Positions 605 through 18,600 of a stretch of DNA of 35,602 bases are shown here, in pieces (within the stretch, counting starts at the first letter, position 1; the number at the start of each line of letters is the position of its first letter). The notes under the pieces are model-generated. The model was given only the letters and a program-made list of their open reading frames with translations. It was not told the DNA's origin and did not search any database. This DNA is from Elusimicrobiota bacterium (GTDB lineage: Bacteria; Elusimicrobiota; Elusimicrobia; Elusimicrobiales; Elusimicrobiaceae), in the NCBI GenBank assembly GCA_029008615.1, contig JAQXJI010000023.1, positions 1 to 35,602 of the forward strand, read 5' to 3'. The position numbers and the translations under genes were made by a program.

Positions 605-1438
605 ATGCTAAAAAATAAAACGGTTAGGAAAAGATTTATAAGCAAAATCTTATCATTGTTAACTTTATTTGTAGTTGTATCCGCACCTGCTTTATTTGCG
701 GCAGTAGCTTCATGCACTGGTAATACAGGTACGAGTGGTACTAGATATGGAACAATTAACGGAACTTGTTATGCTTATTATTGCAAGGATGAAACAATGA
801 CTAAATTAGGCGGTGTAAATTCATCTCAATGTGCAAATTGCAGTGGAGTGAAATACGCACCTTCGGGGAATTGCGGAACATGTGAATATAAATGTTGCAG
901 CGATGGGAACTGGAGCGGATGTAACCAGGCGTGCCCAGATCCTAGTGCAGCTTGTTCAAGCAGTCAATGTTGGAACGGCTCAAAGTGTGCGGATAAGCCG
1001 GCATCAGGATTACAATATAACGGCAAATGTTATTTTAAATGGACAAACTGCAGCTGTAATAAAGGAACAGGCTGGAATTGCACGCAGACTCCTGCAGATA
1101 TTCAAGATGGCAGTTGGAGCGCTCAGACAAGCAAACAATTTACTACCAATTCTGGTCTATGTAGTACTAAAGTAGATATTTCTGAGAATGCTGTGTTATC
1201 TTGTAGGAGACAAGGGGCAAGTGTGCGTGGAATACCTTTGGAGAGAATGGGGGATGGTGAGGTTACTCATACCGGTGAGTGCTTTAAGGCTATCTCTTGT
1301 AAATGTAATAATACTGGTAAGACTATTCCAGTGGACCAATTAGGTAATATCCGTACGTACTGTTTGGGCACCGGCAGTTCTGGCGCCACATGCACTGGTA
1401 AGACTCTTACTTGTAGTTCACACAAGTCACCTTGTTGA
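605..1438 (+). CDS. Secreted 27-cysteine protein, paralogue 1
   Basis: I do not recognise the family. The 277-aa precursor starts with a lysine/arginine-rich n-region and a hydrophobic stretch ending near residue 32 (PALFA), a Sec signal peptide. Cleavage after LFA is likely; VASC at 34-37 also loosely fits a lipobox. The mature part holds 27 Cys (about 10%), many Gly, Ser, Thr and Asn, and no membrane segment, suggesting a disulfide-rich extracellular protein. The N-terminal half (to about residue 128, with CEYKCC and CSSSQCWNGSKC) is nearly identical to the paralogues at 2699 and 14298; the C-terminal half matches 14298 closely and 2699 only weakly. The start is fixed by AGGAGG 8 nt upstream. 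The upstream T tract makes on/off expression likely. A surface adhesin, colonisation factor or antigen is plausible, but unproven. Confidence 0.85.
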   Translation: MLKNKTVRKRFISKILSLLTLFVVVSAPALFAAVASCTGNTGTSGTRYGTINGTCYAYYCKDETMTKLGGVNSSQCANCSGVKYAPSGNCGTCEYKCCSDGNWSGCNQACPDPSAACSSSQCWNGSKCADKPASGLQYNGKCYFKWTNCSCNKGTGWNCTQTPADIQDGSWSAQTSKQFTTNSGLCSTKVDISENAVLSCRRQGASVRGIPLERMGDGEVTHTGECFKAISCKCNNTGKTIPVDQLGNIRTYCLGTGSSGATCTGKTLTCSSHKSPC

Positions 1439-2698: not shown

Positions 2699-3535
2699 AT
2701 GCTAAAAAATAAAACGGTTAGGAAAAGATTTATAAGCAAAATCTTATTTTTGTTAGCTTTATTTATAGTTGTTTGTATTCCCGCTTCATTTGCGGCAGTA
2801 GCTTCATGCACTGGTAATACAGGTACGAGTGGTACTAGATATGGAACAATTAACGGAACTTGTTATGCTTATTATTGCAGTAATGGAACAGTAAATAAAT
2901 TAGGCAGTATGAATTCATCTTACTGTGCAAATTGCAGCGGCGTGAAATACGAACCTTCGGGGAATTGCGGAACATGTGAATATAAATGCTGCAGCGACGG
3001 GAACTGGAGCGGATGTAACCAGGCATGCCCAGATCCGAGTGCGGCTTGTTCAAGCAGTCAATGCTGGAACGGCTCAAAATGCGTCGATAAGCCCGGCAAA
3101 CAGTATGACGGCACATGTTATTATACTTGGTCAAGCTGTACTTGCAATAAGGGCAGCGGCTGGAGTTGCAGCGGGAAAAACTATGAAAGTCGAAAGACGC
3201 AAAAGGGAACATGGACATATTGGGGCGATAAGACTTATAGCTCCTCAAAACCGTCTTCTACATGTCAATATAGCGTTAATACTTATCTCAATGGTTCTAG
3301 CTATACTCCTACGGATGCACTTGCTACTACAGTGTGTCAGAAACAGGCGGCCGGCGTTACAGGTACACCGGTAGGTACGACTACATGGAGCGGAAGCTGC
3401 CGAGTAGTAGGATCCTGCTGGTGTGTGAGTTATAGCGGCTCAGTAATTGGTGATGGTAATTCTTATTGCAACACCAGTATGTATAAATGCCAAATAAGAG
3501 AGGTGAGTTGCTCTGAGGAGTCTGTTTGCGGCTAA
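2699..3535 (+). CDS. Secreted 27-cysteine protein, paralogue 2
   Basis: This 278-aa precursor has the same signal peptide and N-terminal Cys-rich domain as the 605 protein, almost residue for residue to about position 128. After that the sequence changes sharply (Tyr/Ser/Thr-rich, with SYTPTDALATTVC). A framework is still recognisable: C-x-x-Q-A-x-x-V-x-G-x-P, then GSC, a gap of four, and CWC. The total is again 27 Cys, so the cysteine scaffold is kept while the sequence between cysteines varies. It has the strong AGGAGG site and its own terminator, and is monocistronic. Function unknown; the pattern fits a surface-exposed, disulfide-stabilised protein under diversifying pressure. Confidence 0.85.
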   Translation: MLKNKTVRKRFISKILFLLALFIVVCIPASFAAVASCTGNTGTSGTRYGTINGTCYAYYCSNGTVNKLGSMNSSYCANCSGVKYEPSGNCGTCEYKCCSDGNWSGCNQACPDPSAACSSSQCWNGSKCVDKPGKQYDGTCYYTWSSCTCNKGSGWSCSGKNYESRKTQKGTWTYWGDKTYSSSKPSSTCQYSVNTYLNGSSYTPTDALATTVCQKQAAGVTGTPVGTTTWSGSCRVVGSCWCVSYSGSVIGDGNSYCNTSMYKCQIREVSCSEESVCG

Positions 3536-14297: not shown

Positions 14298-15128
14298 ATG
14301 CTAAAAAATAAAACGGTTAGGAAAAGATTTATAAGCAAAATCTTATCACTGTTAGCTTTATTTGTAGTTGTATCCACACCTGCTTTATTTGCGGTAGTGC
14401 CTTCATGCACCGGTGTTGGGGATCAAAATACAAGATATGGCACAATAAACGGAACATGCTGGGCTTATTATTGCAATAATGGAACTGTTACAAAATTAGG
14501 AACCGTGGCTAATTCTTACTGTGCGGCTTGTAGCGGCGTGAAATACGCACCTTCGGGGAATTGCGGTACATGTGAATATAAATGCTGCAGTGACGGAAAC
14601 TGGAGCGGATGTAACCAGGTATGTCCAGATCCTAGTGCGGCTTGTTCAAGCAGTCAATGCTGGGACGGCTCAAAGTGTGCGAATCAGCCGTCATCAGAAT
14701 TACAATATAACGGACACTGTTTCTTTCATTGGAGAAACTGCACCTGTAATAAAGGAACAGGTTGGAGTTGCACGCAGATTCCTGCAGATATTCAAGATGG
14801 CAGTTGGGGCGCTCAGACAAGCAAACAATTTAATAACGCTACTGGTGTATGTAGTACTCGTGTAAATATGTCTGAGGCAGCTGTGCTATCTTGTAGGAGG
14901 CAAGGGGCAAGTGTGCGTGGAATACCGCTTGAGCAAATGGGGGACGGGAAGAGTGTTCATACCGGTGAGTGCTTTGCGGTTACCTCTTGTAAATGTAATA
15001 ACTCTGGTAAGACTCTTACGGTGGACCAATTAGGTAATCTCCGTACGTACTGTACGGGCTACGGCAGTACTGGCGCTACATGCTATGGTAAGACTCTTAC
15101 TTGCAGCACACACAAGTCGCCTTGTTGA
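14298..15128 (+). CDS. Secreted 27-cysteine protein, paralogue 3
   Basis: This 276-aa precursor is colinear with the 605 protein over its whole length, including the C-terminal half (CRRQGASVRGIPLEQMGDG and the ending CSTHKSPC). Many scattered substitutions separate them, but all 27 Cys are kept. The signal peptide is nearly identical; the first mature cysteine follows VPS instead of VAS, which fits a lipobox poorly and favours signal peptidase I. AGGAGGG lies 7 nt upstream of ATG. The gene lies more than 10 kb from the other two yet has the same promoter, leader and terminator, so the unit that was copied is the entire cassette. Function unknown. Confidence 0.85.
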   Translation: MLKNKTVRKRFISKILSLLALFVVVSTPALFAVVPSCTGVGDQNTRYGTINGTCWAYYCNNGTVTKLGTVANSYCAACSGVKYAPSGNCGTCEYKCCSDGNWSGCNQVCPDPSAACSSSQCWDGSKCANQPSSELQYNGHCFFHWRNCTCNKGTGWSCTQIPADIQDGSWGAQTSKQFNNATGVCSTRVNMSEAAVLSCRRQGASVRGIPLEQMGDGKSVHTGECFAVTSCKCNNSGKTLTVDQLGNLRTYCTGYGSTGATCYGKTLTCSTHKSPC

Positions 15129-15217: not shown

Positions 15218-15298
15218 TTAACTTTTAAACGCGGTTTTTATATAATCAAGGACAGAATTATTGCTTACTGAGGTTTTCACTTGGCGTGAAAACTTTTT
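15218..15298 (+). promoter_or_regulatory. Promoter followed by a short hairpin with T tract
   Basis: TTAACT (15218-15223), a 17-base spacer and TATAAT (15241-15246) form a good promoter. About 27 bases later a perfect hairpin, GTTTTCAC (15273-15280) and GTGAAAAC (15286-15293), is followed by five T (15294-15298), like a terminator. The product would be a transcript of only about 45 nt, or read-through into the structured stretch at 15412. No ORF fits the short unit. Confidence 0.4.
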
Positions 15299-15411
15299 AT
15301 AGGCCTTAAGTCCCATATTAAAATAGGTCTGAAATCCGCTTGTTAGCCTGCTCAAAAACAGATAAAATTAGTATATAAGAAATTTGTAAATCTTAGTAAA
15401 AGGATACCGAG

Positions 15412-15588
15412 ATGCTTATAAATTCCGTCATAAATACGAGTATAGGAGGGGCCAAAGCTTCCTTAAGCTTGGCTCGCTTTAAGCGTTCGGTATTCGGCAT
15501 ACATTCCCGTCCCGGGAGTGTTGCCGGCGACTGCAGGGAATGCTGCCGCAAAATAAGTGCAAAATCAGATTTTGGAAAAGGTGTCTAA
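15412..15588 (+). CDS. Possible 58-aa small protein
   Basis: ATG 15412 has AAAGGA 8 nt upstream, and the reading frame runs to TAA 15586-15588 inside the left arm of the terminator. The product is basic, with a CRECC motif near residues 41-45, no signal peptide and no family I recognise. Because the DNA is also full of hairpins, the ORF may be incidental to an RNA gene, or it may be a leader peptide whose translation affects the terminator. Confidence 0.3.
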   Translation: MLINSVINTSIGGAKASLSLARFKRSVFGIHSRPGSVAGDCRECCRKISAKSDFGKGV

Positions 15589-15612
15589 AAAATATTTTAG
15601 ACGCCTTTTTTT
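15579..15612 (+). terminator. Intrinsic terminator before the giant gene
   Basis: AGGTGTCTAAAA and TTTTAGACGCCT pair over 12 positions with one G-U, around an AATA loop, followed by a T7 tail. Confidence 0.88.
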
Positions 15613-15687
15613 ATGCCCTAAGCTATAAAGAAAAGTAAAAAGTAAATTGCTTGGGTATATGAAAATTAAAAAACGGTGCTTAATCAA

Positions 15688-18600
15688 ATGAAAAGAAAAT
15701 TAGCTTCCATAGGCGTAAAAATTATTTCCGTGGTATTGTCTTTCGTGATTCTTTTTGAATGCAACGCCGCCGCTTTTACGGGTATTGAGTCGGCGGATTT
15801 TTCCACTTTGCCATCTTTTGAAGGTTCGTTTAATCTGTTTAACGACAATGCCGGCTCATTTGATTTTAACTTGGAAGAACTCTATTTAAAGGGAAATGAG
15901 GGTAATATTTATGAAGCCGCGCTTAACAGGGAAACCGCGGCGGCCTTGCGCAAGCTTGAGCAAGGCGGCAAAAAGGCCAAAATCGCGGCTTTGAACAGAG
16001 AGGGAAAGGCTAAATACGGTCTTCTTGCGCCGATGTACGTCAAAATAAAATCTTATAAGATATTGAATGCGCTTGAGGCCGATTTGGGCTCATATTTGGC
16101 CGAACAACTTTCGCCCAGAACCGTAATGCCTTATAAAAAATATGAAGAACTTTATAAAACTGAAGTAAAAAAACAGGCTAAGGAATACGCAAAATTAAGC
16201 GGCGGAAAAACTGTTCCGCCTTTCCGCTCCGCGGAAGACGCCGTAATTAACGAAATTTATTCCATTTATCCCGTTAAAACCGCCTATGCGGACTATAAAA
16301 AAGAAGCCCAAGCAGAAATATCTTGGCGCAAAGCCAATATCGGTAAAGTTCAGGAAGCGGCCTATAAAGTTGCCAGAAAATATATAGAAGCGATAGGGGC
16401 GGACAATCTTTCCGTGCCGACGTTTTCTTATCTCGTAAATTTAAAATTAAACGGTAAACCGGTCTTGACGACGCAGGACCGCCTTGCCGTATATAATTAT
16501 GCCGTTACCCGCTTGGAAAAACAAAATCTTAAAGCTTTACAGCTTGGCATTACCAGCAGTCAAAAAGATAAAAAAGTGGCCGCCAATTTGTTGCAGGATA
16601 TAGTAGAAACTATGGTTTTGGGCGGATATGTAGTCGGTAAAGACAAAGGCAGATACGCCAAAGCTGTGGAGAAAGTCATATATGAAGGGGAAGACGGAAT
16701 AGGTTCGGCCAATATATTGGCTGCGGGGTTTTCTTCCTTGTTGGCCGTAAAAGATTATGCCGCGCTTAAAAGGATTTTAAACCATTACACCGTTAAGGAA
16801 AATTCTTCCGCTTCTTTCGGGGATTATATCTCTTTGACTTATTATTCCGGCAAGGTAAAAACCGCCGGAGGAAGGTTTTTGGGGCGCGCTTCCGTAAATA
16901 CCCAGTACAGCACCCGCTATATTTACGCAAATACTTTTACGGATTTGGCCAAGCTCTTGGCCGAGGAGGGCAGTCAGGCTTCCCTCGCTTTGCTTAAAGA
17001 ATACGGCGTTGATAAAGGTTTTGATAAATCTATCAGGCCCTTTTATGCAGGTGCGCTTTTAAGCGGCAAATCCGGCGCGGACGCCAAAACGGCGCAGCGT
17101 TATGCTTTGGACTTGGCGAATTTAACTTTGGGCGATATACCCGCAACCCAGGAATATGATTTGGACAGAGCGCTCTTAGCCAAATATTCCGGCATAAAAA
17201 ACGGCTTAAATTCCGGCGCGGTAATTACCAAAGCTCAATATCAGGCAAGGCTTACCCGCAACAAAAATTTAAGATACTTGGACAGAGCGGCGTTCTCTTT
17301 GGATGTTTTGCTTATGGTTTGGGGTACGATAGGGTTGGCAAAACTCGGCGGTAAAGCTTTAAGTTTAAGCCGTTCGACCTATACCGCAATTAGGGCCGGC
17401 AGAATAGCCGACCAAGCCAAACGCATAGCTTATATAAAAGCCAATTACGCCAAACTCGGCGGCTATATATCGGCGCGCAACAGTATGTTAAGGCTGGGCA
17501 GCCGCATAAAAGCCGGCGGTTTTAGAATAAAAGCTTTATTTACCGGCAAGCCGGTTCCGGCCGCAAAGCCTACGCCTAAAGAGATAAAATTACAAAATTG
17601 GGCGGATAGACGTCAGCTTGCCAGATTGAACGAAACGCGCGTGAAAACGCAAGCAAAAGTGGCTTCTTCTTCAAAACCTACCCCAAGAATGCAGGCAAAA
17701 GCGGATTTGGCCGCAGCCCAATATGAAGCTAAAAAAGCCCAGATAGATTTATTAACCAAAGCCCGCCTTTACGGAGCAAGCGCGGATGCTAAAAACGCTT
17801 CTTATTTGGCGAAAGTAAAAGAATATAATGCCGCCGCGGAACTTTATAATTCCAAATTGGCTTTGCTTTCCAAATATCGGGCCGAGGGGGCGGCCGCTTC
17901 GGTAATAGAAGCTTTGGAGGCGGAAGTTAACGCTTTGGCCGAAACCTTAAAAACAAAGCCTTCTTTGCCAGTTTTCACGGCGGGGGAAACTTCCTTATTG
18001 GAAGCGAATACCCTTTTTAAATCTTCCGTTTCATCTTTAAGACAGGCCCAGTCCGCTTATAAAGCGACCGGTTGGTGGAGCAGAAATATTTTACAGCCTT
18101 GGAAGAATTTGGGTTCCTCCGGCGATGGCACTTTGGGACTTTGGCGCCTTGAAACCGAACCCGGCATAACCATAGCCGAAGCTTTGGGTGACACCAGGCC
18201 GTATAACCCGGATTATACGTCGGGATTAAGGCTTTTTTCCGGTAATCCCGATTATGTCAGCCCGGCAAGCAAATTTTATACTTTTCTTGAAAATCATCAT
18301 CTTACGCCCGTATCCAAAACATTAAAATTCATAAATAACAGGGCTACGATATTGGGCACATCTTTGCTGCTCAACTATAATGTAGCCACGGTTACGCCCG
18401 AAGCTTTAAACGCCGGCAGATTTTTGACGACGGGTACGGAACTTGTGGTAAACACCGGCAACGGGGCAAAATTGGCGGGGGCGCTTGATTTCGGCAAGGC
18501 GGCGTCCATTCCGCTGAAACCCGTAACCTCAAACCTTACTCCGGTAAGCGTAATAGATCCAAAAATATTCCAATTTTATCAAGGTGTTCCTTTGCCGGGC

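Follow-up and report, generated by a model that had tools for sequence, protein, structure and literature searches.

A folded leader reading frame ending inside an intrinsic terminator: a candidate translation-gated attenuator of a giant gene in Elusimicrobiaceae

What is the purpose of a short open reading frame (ORF), a dense run of hairpins and a strong intrinsic terminator that share the same bases between a promoter and a giant gene? We asked this of a 35,602-nt stretch of an Elusimicrobiota bacterium of the gut, from the Elusimicrobium group (hereafter the window; genome of 1.66 Mb), for which a first-pass annotation made from the sequence letters had left three options: a riboswitch-like leader, an independent small RNA or a translated leader. 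A mixture of the first and the third is favoured here. The element is real and conserved, and it is probably regulatory; we take it for a ribosome-mediated attenuator whose leader ORF is unusually rich in structure. Our specific reading, that the leader is a translation-gated transcription attenuator of the giant gene, we hold at roughly even odds (about 0.5). The features on which the argument draws are collected in Table 1.

Table 1. Features of the leader locus (positions in the window).
Feature	Position	Strand	Remarks
Three half-site motif TRGGYCYNNNGNCCYA-N8-TRGGYCYRAA	15300..15333	+	probable activator site of a secreted-protein regulon (genus-wide)
Putative promoter TTGTTA-17-TAAAAT	15340..15368	+	promoter scan; predicted transcription start ~15375
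P0, outer closing helix	15383-15397 with 15551-15563	+	two-sided change in 3/12 pairs; 95% and 85.7% of cells paired
Ribosome site AAAGGA of the leader ORF	15399..15404	+	overlaps part of the P1 5′ strand
P1 5′ strand	15402..15418	+	covers SD and AUG, pairs with 15480-15495; 247-nt MFE folds (4 genomes), RNAalifold
Leader ORF, 58 codons	15412..15588	+	stop TAA 15586-15588 in the terminator's 5′ arm
P2 hairpin, enclosed by P1	15444..15479	+	100% of cells paired in 4 genomes; two-sided change in 1/13 pairs
P1 3′ strand (anti-SD/anti-start) TAAGCGTTYGGTATTC	15480..15495	+	one variable base among four genomes
P4 hairpin, 13 pairs with one bulge	15496..15525	+	two-sided change in 3/11 pairs
P5 hairpin	15526..15549	+	two-sided change in 3/6 pairs
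P6, intrinsic terminator with T7 tail	15574..15612	+	present in 5/5 genomes
P7 hairpin, purine-rich loop, between terminator and giant gene	15612..15659	+	inverted repeat in 5/5 genomes
Giant gene, 1839 aa	15688..21207	+	signal-peptide-like N-terminus; 4 orthologues 53-61% identical

The giant ORF as listed opens at a GTG (15676), and the first residue of its orthologues corresponds to the ATG at 15688, 76 nt past the T-run, close to the 75 bases given before. A weak MFS_1 match near the C-terminus of the protein (19.3 bits) stays under the cut-off of 33.4, no solved structure matches this part in sequence at E up to 1, and an NCBIfam scan of five proteins gave no match. Taking as orthologue a best match to the N-terminal part of the protein with at least 50% identity over nearly the whole of that part, the gene occurs in 5 of the 18 genomes of the genus (the window's own, G017, G015, G012 and G001). 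Leader-like DNA adjoins it in G017, G015 and G012, and in partial form in G001; the order of motif, promoter, ORF, terminator, P7 and giant gene is kept in all five. The gene upstream of the leader encodes a Cys-rich secreted protein in the window, whereas a 332-aa gene takes this place in G012, G015 and G017, so leader and giant gene remain linked even where the gene next to them differs. Three downstream genes, which we take to be a symporter, a galactokinase and an epimerase, look common to the window, G012, G015 and G017, with their order unchanged. Three paralogous Cys-rich secreted proteins of 276-278 aa are encoded in the window (605-1438, 2699-3535 and 14298-15128), with near-identical signal regions and diverging C-terminal halves; one of them was scanned against Pfam and NCBIfam and had no match.

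The motif ahead of the leader belongs to a larger set. A pattern derived from four sites (window, G012, G001 and G014) and searched with up to 3 mismatches gave 58 matches in 14 of the 18 genus genomes, including two pairs overlapping on opposite strands, versus 1 match for the reversed control pattern. The −35 element of the window's putative promoter begins 6 nt past the end of the motif; at 30 motif loci (L048-L077) it lies at 5-6 nt in 24 and at 27-28 nt in 3, and no −35/−10 pair was found at 3. The first ORF, found at 26 of these 30 loci, starts signal-peptide-like in 21 cases (judged by eye) and is the leader ORF in 5. Throughout the genus, three half-sites at near-fixed spacing to a CTTG −35 form a promoter class before secreted-protein genes, several giant paralogues among them, and L075, L052 and L077 carry an extra half-site about 22 nt further on. 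The window holds a second promoter-like site within 15218-15301 (TTAACT-17-TATAAT, 10/12, top score of the scan), followed by an 11-bp terminator-like hairpin (15270-15296) just upstream of the regulon motif; the 3′ part of this region (CGTGAAAACTTT) is conserved in G012, G015 and G017.

The motif is present in 8 (up to 4 mismatches) and absent in 7 of the 15 upstream regions of giant paralogues, and none of the 8 motif-bearing regions has a terminator between promoter or motif and gene. Terminator-like hairpins within 450 nt were found at 8 of the 30 motif loci, namely the five leaders, L049, L065 and L067; those of L049 and L065 lie within coding sequence, and L067 has no ORF assigned. L049 and L065, from related secreted-protein genes of G002 and G005, have their hairpin in the early coding region, about 141-169 nt past the motif, and are possibly another early attenuator of the regulon.

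The terminator and the leader ORF overlap in an unusual way. The T7 tail of the first-pass annotation stands (15606-15612), but its 12-bp stem is too short: the hairpin at 15574-15611 has 16-17 pairs when A-U pairs with the T-run are counted. Two features had not been annotated: the stop codon of the ORF falls within the stem of the terminator, and another hairpin, P7, follows before the gene. The P6 stem begins 12 nt ahead of the stop codon in the window, with the same placement in G012, G015 and G017; in G001 the stop precedes the stem, which starts 4 nt after the first base of the stop. As a control, we took 74 other genes of at least 100 aa from the window and the four related loci: 22 of them have a terminator near the stop, and all 22 terminators start 13-47 nt after it. 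In E. coli reporters, a terminator placed a few bp after a stop codon was almost fully repressed, full function was back beyond about 27-30 nt from the stop, and deletion of the ribosome site together with the upstream coding sequence abolished the repression (PMC4824070). Since the P6 stem starts 162 nt into the ORF, coupling between ribosome and polymerase is plausible at this point, though not assured.

The bases of the ORF also fold. The segment 15412-15640 reaches −78.9 kcal/mol, versus −56.05 ± 4.7 for shuffled sequences (z = −4.86; 0/200 as good). Independent 247-nt folds of four genomes (window, G012, G015 and G017) have P1, P2, P4, P5 and the terminator in common; in 176-nt folds, P1 is present in the window, G017 and G012 and is replaced in G015. 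The run of consecutive hairpins seen in the first pass is recovered as P2, P4, P5 and P6, with P4 as its 13-bp stem. The consensus fold of the four genomes has −37.7 versus −18.7 ± 3.2, with 0/300 column shuffles as good for the core and 0/200 with P0, while the structure conservation index was reached by 3/300 (core) and 1/200 (with P0). In a model-fitted alignment of the four, which leans towards structure, 10 of 58 pairs show two-sided changes versus 3.8 in shuffles (0/500), and sliding the pairing partners lowers the paired cells from 93% to 40-53%. Conservation of the stems in homologues had been proposed as a check, and it is found in these four genomes.

The synonymous controls give different results among genomes. 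Synonymous permutations folded as well in 0 (window), 2 (G012), 35 (G017), 6 (G015) and 6 (G001) of 300 cases, and codon resampling in 0, 1, 30, 24 and 57 of 300, respectively. The fold of G001 is weakly unusual (z = −1.96 for dinucleotide shuffles, −2.18 for synonymous permutation and −0.87 for codon resampling). Per nucleotide, the four leaders fold at −0.29 to −0.34 kcal/mol and G001 at −0.18, which falls among the −0.10 to −0.20 kcal/mol of 16 other regulon genes; these 16 were drawn from 25 other motif loci, the rest being without a clear promoter, start or enough sequence. Under stricter filters, a covariance model strongly matched a single copy in each of 4 genomes among 90 of the family, and did not detect the G001 leader. 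A fifth match, in G058 (E 0.0069), falls in GC-rich sequence that overlaps a long ORF. G001 shares the layout of the leader, then, but not the measured fold.

P1 deserves separate treatment, since it would hide the start site. What speaks for this helix is its invariance and its presence in predicted folds, not two-sided changes in the pair count: 11 of its 16 pairs never vary, and the fitted alignment has no two-sided change in P1. By hand, compensation can be read in the window, where an A-U pair has become G-C, and in G012, whose helix is shifted yet intact. The gap-free core consensus lacks P1, which the longer, gapped one contains. Predicted accessibility of the Shine–Dalgarno (SD) site falls from 0.57-0.99 at 49 nt past the AUG to 0.13-0.25 at 97 nt in three of the five genomes (window, G012 and G017), so that, as the RNA grows, the SD would stay largely free for the first 80 nt or so beyond the start codon before P1 covers it; this fall is absent from the predictions for G015 and G001. 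Among the 16 other regulon genes, 2 show a fall of at least 0.4 between the same points, and 8 have a predicted SD accessibility of 0.30 or less at +170, so occlusion alone is not distinctive. P1 may be the regulated step, and it is the weakest link of the model.

Such a leader could be riboswitch-like, with a fold that binds a metabolite or protein and directly controls the terminator or the giant gene, the ORF being mostly a by-product. Conserved, covarying structure was found in four genomes (it is not demonstrated for G001), the outer helix closes the multi-helix fold just before the terminator, and conservation is seen at the nucleotide rather than the peptide level, all of which fits this explanation. 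However, all five genomes retain an SD-like site, the start codon and the frame into the terminator, even the diverged G001, whose frame stays open in 0.8% of shuffles, and we saw in the folds no antiterminator helix or other helix that would compete with P6. The element also sits before one gene in five species, with no second copy found by the covariance model in the 90 family genomes, and the Rfam-type search suggested by the first-pass annotation came back empty: nothing in the window reached a gathering score, and 9 matches around the leader at E up to 5 were all far under their cut-offs. We consider this explanation unlikely as a whole. As to tmRNA, it was rejected, the genome's above-cut-off match lying elsewhere, on contig C6, and ARAGORN finding no gene in the window.

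The ORF itself, with its AAAGGA ribosome site, is as the first-pass annotation described it, and its frame is better kept than its peptide. It has exactly 58 codons without any indel in four genomes and 63 in G001, where, past the TGA, the same frame reaches the TAA used by the others in the terminator (read by hand). One reading is that the regulon of secreted proteins includes a small protein gene here, with a good SD and its own terminator, and that the giant gene is expressed by leaky read-through. Against this, differences at codon positions 1/2/3 between the window and G017, G015 and G012 are 14/21/21, 16/20/21 and 17/22/23, and so lack the third-position excess of a plain protein gene, the pattern that the first pass had asked about. 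In 5 of 6 genome pairs, the ORF has a synonymous divergence below that of any gap-free 58-codon window of the giant gene; the exception is the pair window-G015, with 0.467, where the giant-gene windows reach down to 0.38 and have their 5th percentile at 0.50. Non-synonymous divergence of the ORF exceeds the giant-gene median in all six pairs. Purifying selection on the peptide was not detected, as pN/pS is not below that of column permutations (141-749 of 1000 at or under the observed value). With synonymous sites more conserved than those of the giant gene and no such selection detected on the peptide, the ORF is not a plain protein gene. For each ordered pair, the frame has a chance of 0.19-0.56 of staying open through the observed substitutions, and an open frame by itself therefore says little.

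Searches with the peptide lead in the same direction. It belongs to no family in Pfam or NCBIfam, and a search of 294 genomes of the phylum gave matches at E <0.005 in none but the four close genomes, without recovering the G001 ORF. Matches in 76 further genomes, at E 0.007 to 1, were treated as chance; at five loci that were inspected, there was no similar ORF. By eye, the most conserved residues of the peptide fall on RNA elements, and the peptide alignment has no single-codon run that would suggest an arrest motif or regulatory codons. We think it improbable that a small protein is the reason for this ORF. Its pattern, as far as sequence comparison can tell, is rather one of conserved nucleotides, a peptide that is not detectably conserved and a retained frame, and we presume that it is translated. 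Inside the ORF there is an SD-like AGGAGG (15444-15449), invariant in four genomes and partly in P2; no conserved start codon was seen after it.

The spacer between terminator and giant gene bears on whether RNA continues past P6. RNAalifold gave no consensus for the five spacers because G001 was misaligned, and inverted repeats were therefore tested per genome. The letters of P7 are mostly different among the five genomes, and shuffles as good numbered 54 (window), 1 (G017), 3 (G015), 0 (G012) and 32 (G001) per 2000; the four-genome consensus of the spacer was better than 300/300 shuffles. There is no promoter-like site between terminator and giant gene in the window; at a looser threshold, there is again none in the window, G015 and G001, and G017 and G012 have weak 8-of-12 matches. 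A conserved helix in this place would imply that read-through RNA exists and that the spacer is transcribed. That the promoter and the strong terminator instead delimit a discrete, independent trans-acting small RNA of about 235 nt, the giant gene having an undetected promoter, is very improbable, as the element is tied to the same gene in 5/5 genomes with one copy per genome, P7 is conserved past the terminator, and the spacer has no good promoter.

We hypothesize that the translation-gated attenuator would work as follows. The regulon promoter would start an RNA near 15375 that carries the 58-codon ORF, whose bases also form the multi-hairpin fold, and then the intrinsic terminator. If the ORF is not translated, P1 would hide the ribosome site and start codon, the leader would fold fully, and the terminator would stop the RNA before the giant gene. 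Until P1 forms there would be an interval in which initiation is possible, and this interval could be tuned by a ligand, a protein or the supply of ribosomes. A ribosome that enters before or despite P1 would follow the RNA polymerase to the stop codon in the 5′ arm of the terminator; the translated leader could not fold, and the terminating ribosome, by covering the terminator, would keep it from folding. The polymerase would then read through P7 into the giant gene. Comparison of the loci shows, in line with this scheme, a fold conserved in four genomes, an ORF that keeps its frame, a stop codon that overlaps the terminator, a peptide on which no selection is detected and a spacer hairpin that is conserved; ribosome-dependent read-through is proposed by analogy with the reporters discussed above.

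More tentatively, and with less confidence than in the attenuator itself, the leader may represent a new class, in which a folded RNA gates initiation at an ORF whose peptide sequence is irrelevant and a ribosome at an in-stem stop codon causes read-through. It might then be a translation-initiation sensor, or a ligand-gated translational switch, that meters one costly giant surface protein. Attenuators of this kind are hard to detect because frame and fold share their bases, so that a search for proteins meets a poor small ORF and a search for RNAs a coding region. Should the mechanism hold, this little-studied phylum would possess a translation-gated switch that picks out a single giant secreted protein from its regulon, in which such a leader is absent from 8 of 8 motif-bearing paralogues examined. 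A stop codon inside a terminator stem would then be a usable signature to find more such switches.

A leader ORF with a ribosome site before an intrinsic terminator, ahead of a structural gene, was found in all five genomes, and this is the arrangement of ribosome-mediated attenuators. We found no description of this particular leader in a search that covered a small part of the literature. Enteric bacteria have attenuators of the pyrBI type, in which termination is prevented when a leader ORF is translated as far as the intrinsic terminator, and the mechanism proposed here would be alike in this. It is unlike pyrBI in that the stem contains the stop codon, the bases of the ORF form a conserved fold that may be able to hide the start site of the ORF, and the downstream gene encodes a giant secreted or membrane protein. 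The pyrBI attenuator is also mentioned in PMC4824070. The rli80-hflXr locus of Listeria is described as a ribosome-dependent attenuator in which mutation of the ORF start codon prevents activation (PMC6310831). It shares with the present leader the combination of a short ORF, RNA folds and a terminator; however, its 14-aa ORF has an RLR stalling motif and is accompanied by an anti-terminator, neither of which we recognised here (PMC6310831). For Salmonella mgtCBR, it is anticipated that translation of leader ORFs determines both the choice of stem-loops and the transcription of the coding region (PMC3641672). That leader has two short ORFs, whereas the one described here has a single ORF of 58 codons with its stop codon and terminator overlapping.
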